Positions 1 through 10,782 of a stretch of 56,119 nt of DNA are shown here, one piece after another; within the stretch, counting starts at the first letter, position 1; each line of letters opens with the position of its first letter. Below the pieces are notes generated by a model, which was not told the origin of the DNA, searched no databases, and saw only the letters and a program-made list of their open reading frames with translations. The position numbers were made by a program, and so were the translations under genes. The DNA comes from Labilibacter marinus (GTDB lineage Bacteria > Bacteroidota > Bacteroidia > Bacteroidales > Marinilabiliaceae), in the NCBI RefSeq assembly GCF_001659685.2, contig NZ_LXYE02000061.1, forward strand, positions 1 through 56,119, written 5' to 3'.

Positions 1-172
1 ACTGATGTATGGTTTCGTAGCGGAATTCAAAGCAATAAAGTTCAAATTACGCAATGAGCCTAATTTGCCACCTTTAAAATAGTCAAATCGGCAGATTTGG
101 CGGAGCCCGAAAAGAGCTACACTGCTCAAAATTACTACAAAACCGCTATGAACTATACATTTTGTTAGCACC
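1..172. repeat. attC-like element a (left end cut by window edge)
   Basis: Imperfect inverted repeat with arms at 6-23 and 143-159 (one single-base gap and a few mismatches) around a central part with smaller hairpins, for example CAAATC-GGCA-GATTTG. The right outer box is GTTAGCACC at 164-172. The left AAC box would lie just outside the window. Complementarity of 164-172 with 745-753 marks the edges of the HEPN cassette. Confidence 0.55.
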
Positions 173-868
173 TGCTATTCTTTGTGAATGTTAGTCATTC
201 TTAACTTCATTAACATAGTATTTCCCCACTTCTGCAGTAAATTCACCGAGGTCGCTATAACTTATCTCTACTTCAAAGTTCTTATTTCCGTTTTTATTGT
301 TATTCCAAAACGTCAGTCTTGCGTTACTTACGTCAATTGAGAAATTAGCGTGTGCCAAAGAGTTTCTTAAAAGTCTTAAAAATTTGAGTGTGTCAATATC
401 TTCAGTATTTGCAGGCAGGTTAATAGTAAAATTTTTTCGTGTAGTGAATGCAAATTTAGTACTAGTCATTTCCCATATTTCTTTCGGGATAACCATTAAA
501 CCATACATAAGCAAAATAACTGTTCCTTGATTTTTTGTGTGATAGAAATTCAAATCTTGAATTCCTTGGTTGGTTTGAAACTTACTAAAAAACTCCGAAA
601 TTGTCATATCGGGATTTGTCTTCAGTTGTTCGTCAAATTGAAAAAGGAACTGTCCATTATACCAAGTCCATACTGGGATTTCTTCTCTTGAATTACTCAT
701 ATTATTTTGATTTTTCACAATGTATGTATGTTTGTTCTTTAGTTGGTGCTAACGTCTCGTATATGAAACGTTTGGCATTTATTGCACTATCTTTCAAAAT
801 ACGAAAAAATATTTTTACTTGTAATAACTTCAAATATAGCACTTTCCGCCAAATGTTATATATACATT
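164..868. mobile_element. Cassette 1: HEPN-like gene
   Basis: The unit runs from the GTT of element a to the GTT of element b and carries one gene on the minus strand. Read on the minus strand, it would instead run from 753 downward through element a, and the gene would be co-oriented with its attC. The two edge boxes are perfect 9-base reverse complements. Confidence 0.55.
191..700 (-). CDS. HEPN-like cassette protein, 169 aa
   Basis: I recognise no specific family. The C-terminal half has R112-N-S-L-A-H117, the Rx4-6H motif of HEPN ribonucleases and of HEPN toxin or defence proteins, in a predicted helical context. The N-terminus is rich in aromatic and charged residues, with no signal peptide or obvious membrane segment. 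The start is ATG at 700; an in-frame GTG at 718 would add six residues. The gene is the only one in its cassette, between attC-like elements a and b and next to two restriction-modification systems, which suggests a defence or stabilisation role. That role is inference from context and one motif. Alternatively it could be a cassette protein of unknown function in which RNSLAH occurs by chance. Confidence 0.6.
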   Translation of the reverse strand: MSNSREEIPVWTWYNGQFLFQFDEQLKTNPDMTISEFFSKFQTNQGIQDLNFYHTKNQGTVILLMYGLMVIPKEIWEMTSTKFAFTTRKNFTINLPANTEDIDTLKFLRLLRNSLAHANFSIDVSNARLTFWNNNKNGNKNFEVEISYSDLGEFTAEVGKYYVNEVKND

Positions 869-879
869 GTTGGCGGTTC
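745..879. repeat. attC-like element b
   Basis: The left box GGTGCTAAC (745-753) is followed by an arm at 760-777 that pairs imperfectly with 847-862. Pairing continues inward (TGC..TAT near 784 with ATAGCA near 836). The right box GTTGGCGGTTC is at 869-879. The structure is about 130 bp with unpaired bases along the stem, resembling a folded attC. Its left box is complementary to the right box of element a, and its right box to the left box of element c. Confidence 0.6.
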
Positions 880-913
880 GTTCTTTTTCCTTTCTTTGTT
901 AATCATTTCGTTA

Positions 914-921
914 TATATTTG
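914..921 (+). promoter_or_regulatory. Candidate -7 element for the C5 methyltransferase
   Basis: TATATTTG fits the Bacteroidota -7 consensus TAnnTTTG. A TTTG at 895-898 is a possible -33 box, but its 15-nt spacing is short. Transcription from here would start near 928, which favours translation from ATG 953 over the upstream in-frame ATG at 782. Confidence 0.35.
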
Positions 922-952
922 TAACCATTGTGTAAGGTTTAATAATGTGGTT

Positions 953-2203
953 ATGAGTGAATATATATCTCTTTCAGAAACAGCAGAATTAGTCGGGAAA
1001 TGTAAAGAAACCCTGAGAAGATGGGACAATGAAGGTATTCTAAATGCTGTTCGTGAGCCTGTTTCCAATTATCGTGTTTATAAAAAATCAGATGTCCATG
1101 CATTATTAGGAAATCTATTTGAGGATATTAAAGAGGATGAAGTTTCAAACTATGTTAAGCCTAATCATGATTATTCAGTTCTTGAGTTATTCGCTGGTGC
1201 TGGTGGTCTTGCTGTTGGTCTTGAAAAATCAGGTCTTAAATGTGTTGCTTTAAATGAAATCGATAAATGGGCTTGTAATACTTTAAGAAAAAATCGTCCG
1301 AATTGGAATGTTCTTGAAGGTGATATTAAGGACTTCAATTTCTCGAAATATAAAAATCAAGTTGATGTTGTTACAGGTGGTTTTCCTTGTCAAGCGTTTA
1401 GTTATGCTGGCAAGAAACTAGGTCTTAAAGATGCCAGGGGTACATTGTTTTATGAGTTTGCTCGTGTTGTTCAAGAAGTTTCTCCTGCTATTTGTATCGG
1501 AGAAAATGTCAGAGGACTACTTAGTCACGAAAAAGGGAAAACACTGCAAGGTATGATTTCTATTCTTGACGAAATTGGTTATAATGTTGTTCCTTTTCAA
1601 GTATTGAAAGCAATTAATTATAAAGTTCCTCAAAAACGGGAACGTTTAATACTAGTTGGCATTAGAAAAGATATTGACATCAATTATGAGTATCCAGAAC
1701 CTCATAAAAAAATATATAATCTTTCTGATGCTCTTAAAAAAGGCGAATTATTTGATAAAAATGTCCCAAAATCTGACGGAGCTAAATATCCACAATCTAA
1801 AAAGGAAGTTCTTGATTTAGTACCACCCAAAGGATATTGGCGAGATTTACCTTTAGATATTCAAAAAGAATATATGGGCGGTAGTTTTTATTTAGGTGGC
1901 GGAAAAACAGGAATGGCTCGTCGAATTGGTTGGGATGAGCCAAGTTTGACCTTAACCTGCAGTCCTGCTCAAAAACAAACTGAACGTTGCCATCCTGACG
2001 AAACTCGTCCGTTTACAGTACGTGAATACGCTAGGATTCAAACATTTCCAGATGAATGGAAATTTGTTGGTTCTATTGCTCAGCAGTATAAGCAAATCGG
2101 AAATGCAGTGCCAGTTAATCTAGGCCGAGAAGTTGGATACTCAATTGTTAATTTTCTAAATAAATATTATTCAATTAAAAATCAAAAAATGGAGAATTCT
2201 TAA
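953..2203 (+). CDS. DNA (cytosine-5-)-methyltransferase with N-terminal HTH domain
   Basis: Type II modification enzyme that methylates cytosine C5 with S-adenosylmethionine. From ATG 953 it has 416 residues. Residues 4-52 form a MerR/excisionase-like helix-turn-helix (ETAELVGKCKETLRRWDNEG). The C5-MTase motifs follow in order: I, LELFAGAGG at 77-85; IV, GGFPCQ with catalytic Cys146; VI, ENV at 184-186; VIII, QKRER at 227-231; and X, QIGNAVPVN near the C-terminus. The frame stays open upstream to ATG 782, but that extension runs through attC-like element b and was not used. The HTH may repress the enzyme's own promoter or that of the endonuclease, as in other HTH-fused C5 methyltransferases. 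The gene is convergent with the endonuclease and overlaps its 3' end by 29 bp. Confidence 0.93.
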   Translation: MSEYISLSETAELVGKCKETLRRWDNEGILNAVREPVSNYRVYKKSDVHALLGNLFEDIKEDEVSNYVKPNHDYSVLELFAGAGGLAVGLEKSGLKCVALNEIDKWACNTLRKNRPNWNVLEGDIKDFNFSKYKNQVDVVTGGFPCQAFSYAGKKLGLKDARGTLFYEFARVVQEVSPAICIGENVRGLLSHEKGKTLQGMISILDEIGYNVVPFQVLKAINYKVPQKRERLILVGIRKDIDINYEYPEPHKKIYNLSDALKKGELFDKNVPKSDGAKYPQSKKEVLDLVPPKGYWRDLPLDIQKEYMGGSFYLGGGKTGMARRIGWDEPSLTLTCSPAQKQTERCHPDETRPFTVREYARIQTFPDEWKFVGSIAQQYKQIGNAVPVNLGREVGYSIVNFLNKYYSIKNQKMENS

Positions 2204-2882
2204 TTTCTTCCTCTAAAGCATCGCATCCTTTATTTATAAAATCCTTTGTGTCAATGGTAAGAATACTTTTATGCAATTCATCTACTAGTCCTTCGTAAAA
2301 GTTTGGAAAACCAGTTAATCTATGCCAAAACTCTTTGCCAATAATCACTGGAAATTGTTGGTCTATTTTTTTGTAATGCTGACTCAATTGATTTTCCTCT
2401 CCGTATAAAACACCTAAAATTAAATCTGAATTATTGAGGTTCATTGAGTTTGTTCTTGCCAAGTTAGTAACAGTTGTAAATTTCTTTAGCAATGGATTTA
2501 CATCTTCAGAGTTAATGGTATTTGGACCAGATTTCAATTGACACCATTTTTGTCTGTTATCAATTTTATCGGTAAACTCAATATCCATTCCTTTTATTAA
2601 GGAGCCTTGTGCCAATCCAAGTTCAACAAACATATTTTGTATACGTGTTCCAAATGATGTATTTATTGAGGTTCCCAAAACTCTCGGGTAATATAAAGCC
2701 TTTGCAACGCCTTTCGCTGTATAGTCTTCTTCAAGTACTTTAGATAAATACTTCACAACAATCGGGTTGATGTTGTATGACTTTAACTTAGCATTATTTT
2801 TTAAAGATGCTTCAATATGATTTTTGAATATTTTGGTTTCAAAATACTCTACAATTTTTGCAATTAACTCTTTCTCTGTCAT
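2175..2882 (-). CDS. Type II restriction endonuclease, EcoO109I-like
   Basis: Protein of 235 aa, probably a PD-(D/E)xK endonuclease. The segment KGMDIEF (Asp100) followed by CQLKSGPNTIN (Lys117) matches the catalytic strand pair and the KxGPNTIN signature I associate with the EcoO109I/PmeII family. EcoO109I cuts RGGNCCY and is paired with a C5 methyltransferase, which agrees with the neighbour here. The target of this enzyme cannot be read from sequence. At 235 residues it is somewhat shorter than EcoO109I (about 270). ATG 2882 lies about 21 nt from a TATCTTTG promoter element. The gene faces its methyltransferase and shares a 29-bp 3' overlap, so the two messages are antisense at their ends. 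Confidence 0.8.
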   Translation of the reverse strand: MTEKELIAKIVEYFETKIFKNHIEASLKNNAKLKSYNINPIVVKYLSKVLEEDYTAKGVAKALYYPRVLGTSINTSFGTRIQNMFVELGLAQGSLIKGMDIEFTDKIDNRQKWCQLKSGPNTINSEDVNPLLKKFTTVTNLARTNSMNLNNSDLILGVLYGEENQLSQHYKKIDQQFPVIIGKEFWHRLTGFPNFYEGLVDELHKSILTIDTKDFINKGCDALEEEIKNSPFFDF

Positions 2883-2902
2883 AATAATCCTTGATAAAAA
2901 AC

Positions 2903-2910
2903 CAAAGATA
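2903..2910 (-). promoter_or_regulatory. -7 element for the EcoO109I-like endonuclease
   Basis: On the minus strand this reads TATCTTTG, a match to TAnnTTTG, 21 nt upstream of ATG 2882. No clear TTTG -33 box lies 19-21 nt further upstream, so the promoter may be weak or activated. Confidence 0.4.
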
Positions 2911-2948
2911 ACAAATTCATGATATTATTTACAGTTCGCTCTTTGAAT

Positions 2949-3089
2949 GACCGCCAACGGCCACTTATAAGCGTAGTGCGGGTTTCAACGCACTTTCCTT
3001 TCAAGTTACCGCTATCGTTGTTTATTTTACTTTTGTTTGAATTACTCACTTCGCCCCGCATTACGTTTATAATTTGTTGTGAGCAGTAC
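2949..3089. repeat. attC-like element c
   Basis: The arms 2965-2982 and 3055-3072 match at 16 of 18 positions, with weaker pairing towards the outer boxes GACCGCCAAC (2949-2958) and GTTGTGAGCAGTAC (3076-3089). About 70 nt separate the arms. It is the clearest hairpin of the four and is not explained by termination of either adjacent gene. Confidence 0.65.
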
Positions 3090-3099
3090 ATTCTTTATT

Positions 3100-4623
3100 T
3101 CATTTTAGAATATTCCTAATGACATCTGCATTTACTTTGGACAGTTCTCTTGGTTCTATTTTGTGCATTCCTCCACCATAAACACGCCCTTCATCCAATA
3201 ATTGACTATCTAAAATACTATTTAAAGCATCATAGATTAATCTCTTATTTTCAATATTCTCAGATAGAAAAGACTTTAGTTTATCTTTTGGATTCAAAAT
3301 TAAATATGAATTTGACACTATTGAATCAGAATGATTTAAAATAAATCTAAAGGTGTTTTTGTTTTTAGAGTTGGAACGTCCAATATAAGTACAATAGAAA
3401 CTGCTTGACTCTCTATTTTCTTGTGCATACCAAATTTTTCTATTCTTGCACAAATAACGATTTGAGACTCCTTTCTCAATACCAGTTTGAATATAGCTAT
3501 ACAGACTTGGATATCTACCTTCAATTTCGGTTAATGATAACTTGCAATCTAAAACAAATAGCTTTTGTTCAATAATTGGATTCCTATTTTCATCACTTAA
3601 AATCTCAGTTTCTTTAAGATATCTTGGACTTGGTAAAATAGGACGAAAATGTTCTAAAGGTAAGTTTAACCTATTGATTTCTTCTTTTGCTAGAATAAAG
3701 AAAGAATTATCACCTGTGGCTATTCCTCTTTTAATAGCAAAAAAATCACTGAGCATAGAATGGTTACTAGAGTCACGTACATTTTTTTGGGGAAACCTTG
3801 TCCATTTACTTTCTTTTTCTAAATCACTTCTTTTTATGGAGTTGGACATTAAAGGTGTTTCTATATTACCTCCAAAAGAAAAATTAACTTGATAGTCTGT
3901 AGTTGGTTTCTTATTCCTAATTATTACAATTGCAGAAGATACAAGTGCATCCGTAAATTGAATATCTTCTGGAGCAAATCTATGTATTTGAATTAACTCA
4001 ACTTTATTAAGTAAGTAGTTTTTTATTTCCTTTCCATAATTGACATCCATAAATTCACTAGGTATCAGCCAAACTCCAATTCCATCTGAATCCAACCATT
4101 TATGACTTATTGCGACGAAGTAACAATACAAGCCAGCAAGACTAGATAGTTTTATATTTGAAGACTTAACTGCATTTTCTTGAAGTACCTTTTTCTGACC
4201 ATTTAAATGATGATGACGAACATATGGAGGGTTGCAAACAATTAGGTTATATTTCTCATTTGATGAAATTTCTGCCTTGCAAAAATCATCAATTCTATAA
4301 TCAAGTTTTGATTCTCTCCATAATTCTTTTGACTCTAATGCATAATGTAGGTCGATTTCATAACCTGTAGCTGAATCTATTTTATTTAAAGGAAAGTTTT
4401 TTAATAATGCACTGTAAAATGAACCAGTACCAATTGCTGGGTCAAGAAAAGTGATTTTTGAATCCTTGTGAAAGAAATGCTTTGTATATGAAAGTATACT
4501 ATTTGACAATTCTATTGGTGTTGAAAACTGACCTAGTTTGTTTCGTTCCAAGCGTGTCTTCAAAGAATCCAACTTTAATTGTATTCCTTGACGTTTTTCC
4601 TCTATGATATTTAAACTATTCAT
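3100..4623 (-). CDS. Eco57I-like adenine-specific DNA methyltransferase
   Basis: Gamma-class N6-adenine methyltransferase of 507 aa, the modification partner of the XamI-like endonuclease upstream. The SAM-binding motif I is FLDPAIGTGSF at about 59-69. The catalytic motif IV is NPPY at 131-134, followed by YVRHHH as in Eco57I/TaqI-type methylases. An N-terminal segment QFSTPIELS (32-40) resembles the entry motif of this group. The C-terminal 250 residues probably form the target-recognition region. The gene starts 2 bp after the endonuclease stop codon, so the two form one operon. XamI (GTCGAC) is paired with an adenine methylase, which supports this match, but the specificity here is unproven. 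Confidence 0.9.
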   Translation of the reverse strand: MNSLNIIEEKRQGIQLKLDSLKTRLERNKLGQFSTPIELSNSILSYTKHFFHKDSKITFLDPAIGTGSFYSALLKNFPLNKIDSATGYEIDLHYALESKELWRESKLDYRIDDFCKAEISSNEKYNLIVCNPPYVRHHHLNGQKKVLQENAVKSSNIKLSSLAGLYCYFVAISHKWLDSDGIGVWLIPSEFMDVNYGKEIKNYLLNKVELIQIHRFAPEDIQFTDALVSSAIVIIRNKKPTTDYQVNFSFGGNIETPLMSNSIKRSDLEKESKWTRFPQKNVRDSSNHSMLSDFFAIKRGIATGDNSFFILAKEEINRLNLPLEHFRPILPSPRYLKETEILSDENRNPIIEQKLFVLDCKLSLTEIEGRYPSLYSYIQTGIEKGVSNRYLCKNRKIWYAQENRESSSFYCTYIGRSNSKNKNTFRFILNHSDSIVSNSYLILNPKDKLKSFLSENIENKRLIYDALNSILDSQLLDEGRVYGGGMHKIEPRELSKVNADVIRNILK

Positions 4624-4625
4624 TT

Positions 4626-5585
4626 TTAAAAACCAAACTTTTCTAAGTCTTCAATTCTATGTTCCCATACCCAATCAATTCCTTCTGCTGCTTCATAGCC
4701 TAGATATCCTGAATCAAAATAACCACATAAGAATAAATCAAAAGTTATTTTATCGCCATATGTATTTCTAAGCTGTTGCATTTTGATAGCTTCTTCTTTC
4801 CTTCGCTTATTTGTGTTTGTAAAATCACCTGCAGATTTGGCTTCAAAAAGTGCAGGAAAGTCACCTTGCTTGGACTCCTTCCTCATAATCACAGCATCTA
4901 CAGGTATATTCACACTGCGTCCATCTTCCAGTTTTACTGGTACGTTAAATCTGAATGAAAAAGTACCACTCGGCATTGATAAAAAATCATCTGCTTCTCC
5001 TTTTTTTAATTCGCGGTAACCACGGGCTTCAAGCCACAATTTCATCGCTTTTAATTGTCGTTGTTCTTGAGCGTTTCTTATAATTGGGTCAGCAACAGCT
5101 CCACATAGTCTGTCGGCAACAATAGTAGATGCACGATAAACTTCCTCTTTTGTACCTTTATCATTTCTTGACTTCCAAACAAAAATATCAGGGTCTGCCA
5201 TTGTTTCAATAATATTCCCAATATCTTTTAATTGATTTATTAGAAGCGGTATCTTCATTTTTGGGGGCATTCGATGCTCAATCTCCATATTTTTCACCAA
5301 GTTTGGTGAAACACCAGAAAGACCAATCAATCTGTCTCTAGCAATTGGAGGGCATGTAGTCATTCTAAGCATGGGTAGCACTGATGGGTGCTCCTGTAGG
5401 ACTTCAGGTTTAATATTTGTAAGATTTTCAGTCCAATTTAGTGCTTCTTCGACTTGTTTCGTTGTGTGTATTCTTGTGTCTCTATATGCTTTTGGAGCAA
5501 AGTGCATAAACCAATTATTATAAAAGTCCACTGATTTTGCAACATCTTCTTTCCAAATATCAACTTTATCTCTATTTACAGCCAT
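4626..5585 (-). CDS. XamI-family type II restriction endonuclease
   Basis: Protein of 319 aa resembling the RE_XamI family. Likely catalytic residues are Asp230 (NIPVDAVIM) and Glu248-x-Lys250 (FEAKSAGDF), a PD-(D/E)xK arrangement. Residues 77-140 contain TCPPIARDRLIGLSG and DPDIFVWKSRND, segments I associate with this family. XamI itself recognises GTCGAC. The gene is first in a two-gene operon and the methylase follows after 2 bp. Placing the endonuclease first is riskier for establishment in a new host than methylase first. A full TTTG-N19-TATTTTTG promoter sits just upstream, inside the cassette. Confidence 0.83.
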   Translation of the reverse strand: MAVNRDKVDIWKEDVAKSVDFYNNWFMHFAPKAYRDTRIHTTKQVEEALNWTENLTNIKPEVLQEHPSVLPMLRMTTCPPIARDRLIGLSGVSPNLVKNMEIEHRMPPKMKIPLLINQLKDIGNIIETMADPDIFVWKSRNDKGTKEEVYRASTIVADRLCGAVADPIIRNAQEQRQLKAMKLWLEARGYRELKKGEADDFLSMPSGTFSFRFNVPVKLEDGRSVNIPVDAVIMRKESKQGDFPALFEAKSAGDFTNTNKRRKEEAIKMQQLRNTYGDKITFDLFLCGYFDSGYLGYEAAEGIDWVWEHRIEDLEKFGF

Positions 5586-5608
5586 AAAATATTTTCCTTA
5601 TTTTTTTA

Positions 5609-5639
5609 CAAAAATACAATAATTCATTGGGTTCTCAAA
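5609..5639 (-). promoter_or_regulatory. Promoter of the XamI-like R-M operon
   Basis: On the minus strand it reads TTTG, 19 nt, TATTTTTG, a full match to the Bacteroidota consensus TTTG-N19-21-TAnnTTTG. It lies 24 nt upstream of ATG 5585 and inside the cassette, so the R-M genes do not depend on an integron promoter. Confidence 0.7.
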
Positions 5640-5648
5640 TTCAGCACC

Positions 5649-5771
5649 GTATTGCTCACAACTACCTAGGAAAACAACCTTAGGTGTTGTTATTTTTGTT
5701 TTAACAAAGCTAAAGGTGCACAATACATGCCATATAGGCAAGAATAACACACCTAAATATGTTAACTATGG
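5649..5771. repeat. attC-like element d (right boundary of the array)
   Basis: Outer boxes are GTATTGCTCACAAC (5649-5662) and GTTAACTATGG (5761-5771). The inner arms 5680-5698 and 5739-5756 pair well with small gaps. A second short hairpin (ACCTAGG near 5664 with CCTTAGGT at 5678) overlaps the left arm, so the fold is less regular than in elements b and c. If the array reads leftwards, this could be the attI-proximal site or a cassette relic. Confidence 0.5.
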
Positions 5772-5976: not shown

Positions 5977-6813
5977 ATGGCGGAGAAAGAAAAAGAAGAG
6001 CTTACCAGAATTGACATCGAGAAGGTTTTTAGAGATAAAAATCCAGGAGTTTTAAAATGGATTCCGAAGTTTGTAATTTCATATTTAAAAAAGGTTATTC
6101 ATCAAGATAGTCTTAATTGGATGCTCGAAAACTATGCAGATAGTTACAATGTAGATTTTGGAAGAGTTTGCATGGAGCATTTTGGAGTTAAAAGTAAGTG
6201 TATTGGCTTAGACAAAATTCCCACAGATGGAAGATATCTTTTTGTAGCAAACCACCCGCTTGGTGGATTAGATGGTATTATTTTTCTGACAGAAGTAGGG
6301 AGTGTTTTTAAAAATATTAAATTTCCAGTTAATGATATTTTACTGTTGTTAGGTAGGTATAATGATATCTTTGTTCCAATTAATAAACATGGCAGTCACT
6401 CCAGAGAAGCGGCAAAATTAATTGAAGATGCGTTTACTTCAGAAGCCCAAATGTTATTCTTTCCAGCAGGACTAGTTTCGCGTAAGCAAAAGGAAGGTAT
6501 AAAAGACCTTGAGTGGAAGCCAAATGTTATAAAAAAAGCAATTAAAACTAAACGAGATATTATTCCTGTGCATATTGATGGTAGAAATTCGAACTTTTTT
6601 TATAATCTATCTCGTCTCAGAAAGCTACTTGGGATAAAAGCTAATCTTGAAATGTTATATCTTGTAGATGAAATGTTTAAGCAAAAAGGTAAGCTTGTAA
6701 ATCTTCAATTTGGAACGCCAATTCCTTGGCAAGAATTACAAAATGGAGACTCTCCAAAAGCTTGGGCCGAAAAAATAAAGAAAACAGTCTACAGCTTACC
6801 AAAAATAATTTAA
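5977..6813 (+). CDS. glsA: Lysophospholipid-type O-acyltransferase (GlsA-like)
   Basis: Membrane-associated acyltransferase of 278 aa. FVANHPLGGLDG carries the catalytic pair His93 and Asp99, with the HPxGGLD spacing typical of the GlsA/OlsA-like subgroup. FFPAGLVSRKQ (about 167-177) is the second conserved acyl-acceptor motif. In Bacteroides thetaiotaomicron, glsA adds the second (O-linked) acyl chain to N-acyl-3-hydroxy-acyl-glycine, completing glycine lipids. The next gene, 28 bp downstream, looks like GlsB, the enzyme for the first acylation, and this pairing is the main reason for the specific call. The gene order is the reverse of the one I recall for Bacteroides. A generic PlsC-like acyltransferase is the alternative. 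Confidence 0.78.
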   Translation: MAEKEKEELTRIDIEKVFRDKNPGVLKWIPKFVISYLKKVIHQDSLNWMLENYADSYNVDFGRVCMEHFGVKSKCIGLDKIPTDGRYLFVANHPLGGLDGIIFLTEVGSVFKNIKFPVNDILLLLGRYNDIFVPINKHGSHSREAAKLIEDAFTSEAQMLFFPAGLVSRKQKEGIKDLEWKPNVIKKAIKTKRDIIPVHIDGRNSNFFYNLSRLRKLLGIKANLEMLYLVDEMFKQKGKLVNLQFGTPIPWQELQNGDSPKAWAEKIKKTVYSLPKII

Positions 6814-8553: not shown

Positions 8554-10782
8554 ATGGAAACAAAAGACTTTGCTAAAGGAAATTGGTGTGATGCCATTGA
8601 TGTTAGAGACTTTGTTAAACAAAACATCTCTCCATATTCTGGAGATTACTCTTTCCTTGAAGGAGCAAGTCCTAAAACAAAAAAGCTTTGGGATGTTTGC
8701 CTGCAAGCATTAAAAGAAGAACGTGCTAATAATGGGTTAAGAAGTGTAGATACGGAAATTGTTTCTACTGTAAACTCTTTTGCGGCGGGTTATATAGATA
8801 AAGAAAGTGAAGTAATTGTTGGTTTGCAGACCGATGCTTTACTTAAAAGAGCTATGAAACCTTACGGTGGATTTAAGGTAGTTCAAAAAGCACTTTCGGA
8901 GCACGGTTTAAAACCATCTGCTATGGTTACCGAGGCTTTCGGAAAATATACAAAAACACATAACGACGGGGTTTTTGATGCTTATACAGATGAAATCAGA
9001 AAATTTCGTTCTTTAGGTTTCTTAACTGGTTTGCCAGATAACTATGCTCGTGGTCGTATCATTGGTGACTATAGAAGAGTTGCTCTATACGGTATCAACC
9101 GTTTAATTGAGGAGAAAAAACAAGACTTAAAAGGAATTAATGGTCCGATGACTGACCATACTATCCGTTTAAGAGAAGAAGTTGCTGAGCAGTTAAAAGC
9201 GTTAGGTCAAATGATTGATATGGGTAACCATTACAATTTAGATTTATCTCGTCCTGCAGAAAATGGTATTGAAGCTGTACAGTGGACTTACATGGCTTAC
9301 CTTGCTGCTGTAAAAGAGCAAGATGGTGCTGCAATGTCATTGGGTAGTGTTTCTTCTTTCTTGGATATATATATACAACGTGATTTAGAAGCTGGTTTAA
9401 TTACCGAGCAAGATGCTCAGGAGTATATTGACCAATTTGTGATGAAATTACGTATGGTTCGTCACCTTAGAATGGAAGCTTACGAGCAAATTTTTGCTGG
9501 AGATCCAACTTGGGTAACTGAGTCTATAGGTGGTATGTTAGTAGATGGAAGAAGTAAAGTAACTAAAACTTCATTCCGTTTCTTAAATACCTTATATAAC
9601 CTAGGGCCTTCGCCAGAGCCAAATATTACTATCCTTTGGTCTAATAGCCTTCCGCAAGGATTTAAAGAATTTTGTTCAAAAGTATCTATCGATACATCAT
9701 CTATCCAATACGAGAACGACGATTTAATGCGTTGTCACAGAGATAGTGATGATTATGGTATTGCTTGTTGTGTATCATTCCAGGAATTGGGTAAACACAT
9801 TCAGTTTTTTGGAGCACGTACCAACTTAGCTAAAACACTTTTGTTAGCGCTTAACGCTGGACAGTGTGAAAATACAGGTACTCAAATGGTAGATGGTATT
9901 CCATCGATGGCTAATGATGAGTATTTAGATTTTGACAAAGTAATGGCTAACTTCGAAATTGCCATGAGAGAAGTAGCGCGTGTGTACAATGAGTCGATGA
10001 ATATCATCCACTACATGCACGATAAGTACTACTACGAAAAAGCACAGATGTCTTTAATCGATACTAATCCAAAAATTAACTTGGCTTACGGTATTGCAGG
10101 ACTTTCTATTGTGGCCGATTCACTTTCTGCTATCAAGCATGCTAAAGTTAAACCAGTTCGTAACGAAGATGGCTTAACGGTAGATTTTGAGATTGAAGGA
10201 GACTTTCCAAAATATGGTAACGATGACGATAGAGTAGATTTAATTGCTCGTAGTTTAGTAAACCATTTTAGTGAGGAGTTGAAAAAGCTTCGTGTATATA
10301 AAGATGCAAACCCGACTTTATCGGTACTTACCATTACATCTAATGTAACTTACGGTAAAAAAACGGGAGCTACGCCTGATGGTAGAGCTAAAGGTATTGC
10401 CTTTGCACCAGGAGCAAATCCAATGCACGGGCGTGATACTCACGGTGCTATTGCTTCATTAAATTCAGTAGCTAAAATTGATTACGAAGATTCTCAGGAT
10501 GGTATTTCTAATACATTCTCTATTGTACCTAAATCATTAGGTTCAAACGAAGAAGATAGAATTGCCAACTTGGTAGCAGCTTTAGATGGATACTTTGGTA
10601 AAAATGCACAGCACCTTAATGTAAACGTTCTTAACAGAGAGCTATTAAAAGATGCTATGGAAAACCCAGAAGAATATCCACAGCTAACGATTCGTGTATC
10701 AGGATACGCAGTTAATTTTACACGTTTATCGCGCGAACAGCAGCAAGAAGTATTGTCTCGCTCGTTCCACGATTCAATGTAA
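8554..10782 (+). CDS. pflB: Formate C-acetyltransferase (pyruvate formate-lyase)
   Basis: Glycyl-radical enzyme that converts pyruvate and CoA to acetyl-CoA and formate without oxygen. It has 742 residues, close to the usual 740-760. The thiyl-transfer pair Cys405-Cys406 sits in GIACCVSFQ, and the radical Gly717 in [10 protein letters not shown] near the C-terminus. Both are intact, as is [15 protein letters not shown] after the cysteines, so this is true PFL rather than a glycerol- or choline-type lyase. Codon use is regular and highly expressed in style. The activase and formate channel follow on the same strand. A palindrome at 8443 and a -7 box at 8525 probably give oxygen-responsive control. 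A long stem-loop follows the stop codon. Confidence 0.98.

Follow-up and report, generated by a model that had tools for sequence, protein, structure and literature searches.

A putative integron-like cassette system of Bacteroidia, linked to a tyrosine recombinase family without the IntI additional domain

The cassette array in the window

Positions 1-5771 of a 56,119-nucleotide stretch of Labilibacter marinus DNA (the window, which is the whole of contig C58 of the 6.03-Mb, 81-contig genome G000) are read here as three gene cassettes, three attC sites, one of them truncated by the contig end, and one attI-like site. On the minus strand, the order is attI-like site, XamI restriction-modification (R-M) cassette, EcoO109I R-M cassette, HEPN cassette and contig end, and the array extends into that end at base 1. 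Very probably, this region forms the attI-proximal segment of an integron-like array of cassettes, belonging to a Bacteroidia system that would be run by a XerA/IntI-like tyrosine recombinase with a probably HARP-like N-terminus and without the additional domain of IntI.

The first cassette of the array (2958..5662, minus strand), which adjoins the attI-like site, encodes a XamI type II restriction endonuclease (4626..5585, minus strand; Pfam PF09572, E 2.6e-116; PADLOC REase_II, E 9.6e-107) and an Eco57I/N6-adenine-type DNA methyltransferase (3100..4623, minus strand; PF07669, E 4.6e-17; PADLOC MTase_II, E 1.4e-125), and ends in attC3 (2956..3078, minus strand; boxes 2950-3084), which has a 91% identical relative in genome G001. 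The second cassette (753..2958, minus strand) ends in attC2 (751..871, minus strand; boxes 745-877) and carries a C5-cytosine DNA methyltransferase gene with a MerR-like N-terminal helix-turn-helix (953..2203, plus strand; PF00145, E 1.5e-84, and PF13411, E 3.2e-6, both for the open reading frame (ORF) 782-2203; PADLOC MTase_II), the start of which was taken from the sequence as the ATG at 953, and an EcoO109I-family type II restriction endonuclease gene (2175..2882, minus strand; PF14511, E 5e-26); the two genes (953-2882) are convergent and overlap. The third cassette (1..753, minus strand) runs from its GTT (AAC on the plus strand, 751-753) to attC1 (1..166, minus strand; GTT 164-166) and encodes a 175-aa HEPN protein resembling pEK499_p136 (191..718, minus strand; PF18736, E 1.9e-10). 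For the HEPN product and the EcoO109I-family endonuclease, a PADLOC search gave no match at E<=0.001. Pfam agrees with the original prediction of two type II R-M systems and a HEPN-like gene, the predicted R-M pairs being the EcoO109I endonuclease with the C5 methyltransferase and the XamI endonuclease with the N6 methyltransferase.

The ends of each cassette are complementary, exactly as had been claimed. When the sequence is read directly, GTTAGCACC at 164-172 is the reverse complement of GGTGCTAAC at 745-753 (9/9), GTTGGCGGT at 869-877 that of ACCGCCAAC at 2950-2958 (9/9, and 6/6 in the scripted test), and GTTGTGAGCAGTAC at 3076-3089 that of GTATTGCTCACAAC at 5649-5662 (13/14), the mismatch in the last pair lying eight positions beyond GTT, where it is a signature of the family. 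All three cassettes follow the complementary-end rule and have A at this position 8.

A covariance model of attC (R1) was built from 45 aligned sites of 14 loci, none from this genome; the 71 chain-detected attC sites considered did not include sites that run off a contig, and 26 of the 71 were omitted because they were outside 124-140 nt in length or near-duplicates. On the minus strand of the window it matched 745-877 (63.3 bits, E 1.3e-15), 2950-3084 (54.4 bits, E 3.5e-13) and 1-167 (20.6 bits, E 4.6e-4), and the next best match in the 56 kb had an E value of 1. Of the four attC-like hairpins proposed originally, these three stand as attC sites. The fourth element (5663..5768, minus strand), which directly precedes the GTT of the first cassette (5660-5662), was rejected as an attC and is instead read as attI-like, because it has no match to R1 and because a copy identical at 104 of 106 positions (98%) follows the stop codon of a recombinase gene on contig C13. 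Folding each of the four elements as single-stranded DNA, which had been put forward as a check, gave modest z-scores (-1.29, -2.98, -1.04 and -2.32).

Recombinase loci and linked arrays

The window was correctly described as lacking an integrase, and the candidate enzyme is found at the end of contig C13. No protein of the genome exceeded the cut-off of the integron-integrase profile TIGR02249, and its best sub-threshold match is this 381-aa tyrosine recombinase frame, which is free of stops; the contig ends just before the GTT that opens the first cassette of the window. A search for an IntI-type recombinase with the extra domain, as had been suggested, found none, and the C13 enzyme is without that domain. 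Two further attI-like copies, on C32 (G000:C32:205955-206071, L175; 78%) and C29 (G000:C29:90505-90609, L178; 79%), lie beside attC sites and have no recombinase gene directly behind them. The segment common to the attI copies starts at about TTAAC in most of them, and therefore attI may travel as a module.

Aquimarina, Epilithonimonas tenax and a Saprospiraceae metagenome-assembled genome all have relatives of the C13 recombinase. At E<=1e-40, a threshold loose enough to let in shorter, more distant recombinases, 75 of 149 related genomes gave a match. Their common layout is a recombinase gene, an attI and tandem attC hairpins of about 122 nt with their cassettes. Fifty recombinase loci comprising 416 kb (242 kb downstream, 110 kb upstream) were analysed, in 15 of which no more than 600 bp separate the recombinase from the contig end. 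At E<=1e-3, R1 made 109 matches in these loci, 108 downstream and one upstream, and every one of the 109 lies on the recombinase strand; 22 of the 24 loci with at least 2.5 kb of downstream sequence contain an attC match and 20 contain two or more. As in integrons, an attI site adjoins the recombinase gene where the first cassette starts: in 17 of the 22 listed loci, the GTT of the first cassette follows the recombinase stop codon at a distance of 27-318 bp, and several loci show, by eye, an inverted repeat just before this GTT. In sequence terms, recombinase, attI and array are shown to co-locate in one orientation.

The array detector used GTT/AAC, arm complementarity and edge complementarity; with strict arm scores it missed most of the sites in the window, and a relaxed version was used. 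It scored up to 82 downstream of recombinases, while controls taken from window positions 6000-54,000 reached at most 8.5. For upstream flanks the maximum was 15, from a single hairpin, and a two-site chain appeared in just one of them (6.5). R1 had no match in a 50-kb stretch of E. coli DNA at E<=1 and no match in the stretches around eight places with other recombinase matches of the L. marinus genome (L088-L095).

The system appears to be widespread. The absence of such hairpins around unrelated genes, in this or related genomes, had been named as what would speak against the prediction; R1 found 26 matches at E<=0.1 in the L. marinus genome, two of them inside the window, and attC sites at E<=1e-6 occur in at least 177 of 247 sampled Bacteroidia genomes, a lower bound because 13 candidates per genome were scored. 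Scattered single attC sites are also present in the L. marinus genome. The recombinase was detected at E<=1e-50 in 128 of the 247 genomes, so that 118 have both, 59 attC only, 10 the recombinase only and 60 neither; attC thus occurs in 118/128 genomes with the recombinase versus 59/119 of the others (Fisher odds ratio 12, p 2.7e-14, without correction for kinship). Among 149 listed attC places there are 31 recombinase-attC pairs within 20 kb, of which 28 have the attC downstream on the same strand, none upstream on the same strand and three on the opposite strand; the 13 training G genomes are absent from the matches, the membership of E. tenax not being visible. Copies of the recombinase exist on plasmids. 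One scan of viral contigs yielded none, and 28 phage records match the recombinase partially, the best 10 of the 28 at about 39% identity.

Cassette ends, attC folding and exchange

Classical attC boxes have the form RYYYAAC/GTTRRRY. The claim that they do not fit here is borne out by 70 cassette starts, in which position 1 after GTT is R in all 70 and position 2 is A or G in about half. The hexamer that follows GTT and the one that precedes the next AAC are fully complementary in 68 of 81 units, compared with a mean of 1.36 units after shuffling, and none of 1000 shuffles reached 68. As some sites had been picked by the edge-using detector, the units were split by origin: full complementarity was found in 13/16 units with neither attC picked by edges (shuffle mean 0.92), in 6/14 with one (shuffle mean 0.73) and in 49/51 with both. 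At position 8 after GTT, 80 of 81 unit starts have A, as do all 70 units with edges of at least 5/6; in 57 of these 70 it is opposite C, forming a conserved mismatch on the top strand and a T-G wobble on the bottom strand. Beyond it, positions 9-12 pair again in 48-79%. Most cassette ends fit G^TT R N5 x A ... C x N5 Y AAC, and the L. marinus genome has A at position 8 in 27 of 30 junctions. The six-base box (N6) takes 56 distinct forms among 70 cassettes; it varies from cassette to cassette even where the attC sites are near-identical, and both ends are still complementary.

The attC sites are mostly about 122 nt long, and a second class of about 160-190 nt (L083, L086, L104, L015 and others) has cassette ends of the same kind. 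Across 109 sites, 92.1% of the cells pair, versus 29-43% with slid partners, and few of the pairs are G-U. Double changes occur in all 16 predicted pairs of the attC, the detector having favoured exact complements. Predicted DNA folding makes the bottom strand the more stable one in 98 of 105 sites (p 1.8e-16). The tandem cassettes each end in an attC predicted to fold into a hairpin, as those of integrons do. The median cassette size is 804 bp (70 cassettes), and in 51 of the 54 cassettes with a main ORF inside, this ORF points towards its own attC.

The proposed comparison of related genomes at the GTT boundaries supports exchange, whole cassettes being shown to differ between genomes with breaks at GTT. 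The genomes G066 and G028, which represent two genera of the family, have a 1290-bp block in common that is 100% identical, ends at (C)GTT and GTT, and has different neighbours on both sides. The copy of the second window unit in the congener G008 (84% identity) ceases exactly at window position 751, the GTT of attC2; its other end ceases about 40 bp before attC3, which makes the attC3 side of the comparison uninformative. The Chryseobacterium plasmids NZ_CP041688.1 and NZ_CP094530.1 are identical at 100 of 107 positions from the stop codon to the crossover and at 9 of 40 just after GTT, which places their divergence point at G^TT. Downstream of the recombinase, NZ_CP041688.1 carries four attC sites on the recombinase strand, and one more strong attC lies elsewhere on the plasmid. 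In the same array (L206), the cassette start GTTGGGAAAAAT was seen four times, near 10148, 12243, 14624 and 17693, and at least two of these copies resemble a short unit without a gene.

The cassettes contained 68 ORFs of at least 60 aa, 62 of which (at least 80 aa) were scanned for domains. Genes for an rRNA dimethylase, a TonB receptor and a carbonic anhydrase occur beside R-M, GmrSD and CBASS (cyclic-oligonucleotide-based antiphage signalling system) genes, and the cargo also includes reverse transcriptase genes. Because the cargo elsewhere is mixed, the suggestion that the array is specialised for defence is unsupported. Nor is defence cargo itself the news, since defence cassettes in ordinary integrons are already described in the available part of PMC12409362.

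Comparison with integrons and alternative explanations

The recombinase consists of a SAM-like core-binding domain, a Phage_integrase domain and an N-terminal extension. In the accessible sections of PMC9668308 and PMC2426708, the additional domain around patch III is the defining feature of IntI, and according to an excerpt of a recombinase survey the conservation of this insert within the survey's 'integron-like' subgroup is incomplete. The family studied here does not have the domain: the phmmer alignment to IntI4 (2a3v) skips the insert, and six family members reach 185-216 bits with TIGR02249, in two stretches, against a cut-off of 265 and 460 bits for a genuine IntI (L136). The XerA profile NF040815 gave 217-223 bits in the six members scanned, two of them over its cut-off of 220, and the best sequence match in the PDB is 4a8e. 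The enzyme is similar to XerA/Xer (NF040815, 4a8e, 5hxy) in its core-binding and catalytic domains and differs from them in its extra N-terminal domain or domains and its linked attC arrays. In a tree that left out 15 of 59 recombinase rows as partial, long-branched or mis-framed, the six IntI sequences group together in a clade (support 100) that includes no family member, and as far as this tree goes the recombinase is outside the IntI clade. A single clade of 35 family rows was not rejected (p-AU, approximately unbiased test, 0.669), and the tree does not fix the deep order.

The N-terminal domain or domains are likely to be HARP-like, because weak Pfam, profile and fold signals agree. Of the 28 extensions scanned, 26 contain one to three copies of a W-x6-8-W/Y/F motif, some of the matches being loose; in the other two (L086 and L087) it was not found. 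An AlphaFold2 model of the E. tenax enzyme (mean predicted local distance difference test score, pLDDT, 60; N-terminal domain about 65-79) contains a beta-beta-alpha-beta-beta-alpha N-terminal unit, which weakly resembles the HARP domain of SMARCAL1 (PF07443, 4o66). The resemblance differs from that of a true SMARCAL1 HARP domain in that it stays under the curated cut-offs and appears in few members, and its function in the recombinase is putative.

The likeness to the integron (IntI/attI/attC) covers a tyrosine recombinase with attI beside its gene, tandem cassettes that end in folded attC sites, genes mostly in one direction (51/54), the GTT junction, complementary cassette ends, a bottom strand predicted to fold better in most sites and defence genes in the cargo. 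The differences are that the Bacteroidia recombinase lacks the IntI additional domain and has one or more extra N-terminal domains, that its cassettes start with GTTRN5xA instead of GTTRRRY, that the recombinase gene has the array on its 3' side, and that attI-headed arrays without a recombinase occur in the same genome. The system would thus work like an integron yet falls outside the IntI definition, and it is called integron-like and not an integron sensu stricto because its anatomy (attI, cassettes, folded attC, G^TT exchange) is that of an integron but its enzyme is not IntI. The idea of a new Bacteroidota integron type, part of the original prediction, gains support from the same type of attC recurring in arrays directly downstream of one recombinase family and from the cassette differences that break at GTT. 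CALIN are attC clusters without integrase, in the terms of the available text of PMC9024848; the window array is similar to them in having no recombinase beside it, and differs in retaining an attI-like site with a matching recombinase elsewhere in the genome.

The mechanism may be envisaged as follows. The recombinase would cut attC at GTT/AAC on its folded bottom strand and join attC to attI, so that cassettes are inserted and excised at a position that follows the stop codon of the recombinase gene itself, and the C13 enzyme would act in trans on the attI of the window, which has no recombinase of its own. In the cassette circle, the variable complementary N6 box would pair again, so that the outer (R-type) box is complete for integration, and the HARP-like domain could take over from the IntI patch, assisting in hairpin binding or stabilisation.

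It should be noted that several observations weigh against this interpretation. The window array is linked to the C13 recombinase only by the shared attI, as no recombinase adjoins the array and C13 stops at the junction; attC1 is weak and truncated, its R1 match being cut at the 3' end; and both complete attC sites of the window fold slightly better on the top strand (-19.3/-14.4 versus -18.2/-14.1 kcal/mol on the bottom strand). In the L. marinus genome, the edges match at 5/6 or better in just 7 of 13 consecutive attC pairs. Elsewhere, 5 of the 22 listed loci have no first-cassette GTT close behind the stop, two of the 24 loci with sufficient downstream sequence (L073 and L102) have no attC match, plasmid NZ_CP094530.1 has none at E<=0.05 in the 19 kb examined, and the 59 genomes with attC only and the 10 with the recombinase only depart from strict pairing. 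As to the HARP-like domain, two of 10 extensions gave matches to Pfam HARP, with E values of 4e-5 and 0.11 that fall short of the curated cut-off, a four-row profile found SMARCAL1 HARP 4o66 at E 0.015, behind an unrelated protein (0.008), and Foldseek placed 4o66 (probability 0.82, E 0.77, on the model with mean pLDDT 60) far below XerA and IntI4.

Some of these observations would also be expected if the array were a fossil, with sites that once belonged to such an integron and cassettes that no longer move in the L. marinus genome. The incomplete edges in this genome, the truncation of attC1 and the attI copy without an adjoining recombinase fit such decay, while all three cassettes of the window retain complementary ends and the A at position 8, and a recombinase frame free of stops is still present together with its 98% identical attI. 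A fossil array is regarded as rather unlikely.

A divergent classical integron, in which a true IntI elsewhere serves the arrays and the recombinase family is a mere neighbour, is very improbable and has been largely refuted. The anatomy of the attC sites (boxes, GTT, hairpin, bottom-strand bias) is like that of classical ones, and in the remaining classes of the phylum true IntI is common, with 105 of 395 genomes in the sample exceeding the TIGR02249 cut-off. However, only one of these 105 genomes (G185) belongs to the class of the window, the share of this class among the 395 not being given, and the L. marinus genome itself has no protein over the cut-off. For the Bacteroidetes, the available portion of PMC9024848 reports only In0 elements and one complete integron (Salinibacter ruber). 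In addition, the 262 kb of sequence surrounding 15 genuine IntI loci (which were not confirmed to carry arrays) gave no R1 match at E<=0.01, and the first cassette mostly starts shortly behind the stop of this very recombinase. The spacing between the KGxKDR and HxLRH motifs is 64-65 aa in those 45 of the 49 family rows that showed both motifs, compared with 106 aa in six of the seven IntI rows (the remaining one is mis-framed); five of 12 IntI loci had no usable frame. The highly unlikely view that the cassettes are non-autonomous, transposase-moved units with terminal inverted repeats and an internal palindrome, and with no hairpin recombination, draws on the inverted repeats that run past GTT (positions 9-12), the scattered single attC sites and the attI copies without recombinase on C58, C32 and C29, but it conflicts with the head-to-tail order of the units in one orientation behind one recombinase and with an N6 box that differs between cassettes, because of which there is no fixed terminal repeat for a transposase.

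An integron-like system run by the XerA/IntI-like recombinase remains the preferred interpretation. More tentatively, and with somewhat less than even confidence, hairpin cassette capture may have arisen, or been re-engineered, a second time in a separate tyrosine recombinase lineage of Bacteroidia, with the HARP-like domain replacing the IntI additional domain and one recombinase serving dispersed attI-headed arrays in trans. No description of a non-IntI integron was found among the matches listed in the literature searched, which comprised titles and the beginnings of abstracts, with bioRxiv and most subscription journals outside it. If functional, the system would be a large overlooked route of gene exchange in Bacteroidia, which tools that require the IntI domain should miss, and a natural test of which parts of the integron are essential.

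The attI-like site of the window adjoins an acyltransferase gene (5977-6813). In the congeners G002, G003, G004 and G008, mraZ-rsmH lie directly upstream of this gene, which is not the case in G007 (the other three congeners were unread at this place). An insertion between mraZ and the acyltransferase gene was considered and set aside: mraZ of L. marinus lies on contig C41 (97017-97463) behind other genes, and therefore no empty site is claimed. The IS91-associated tyrosine recombinase of contig C42, in which the spacing of the two motifs is 65 aa, was rejected as a driver of the arrays, with one attC upstream and no array downstream. On this 3.1-kb contig (L005), the attC (576-709) lies upstream of an IS91-like transposase gene accompanied by its own tyrosine recombinase, and in the C. 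oryzae plasmid, too, an IS91-type element with a tyrosine recombinase (L207 10969-12911) is present, downstream of the recombinase.

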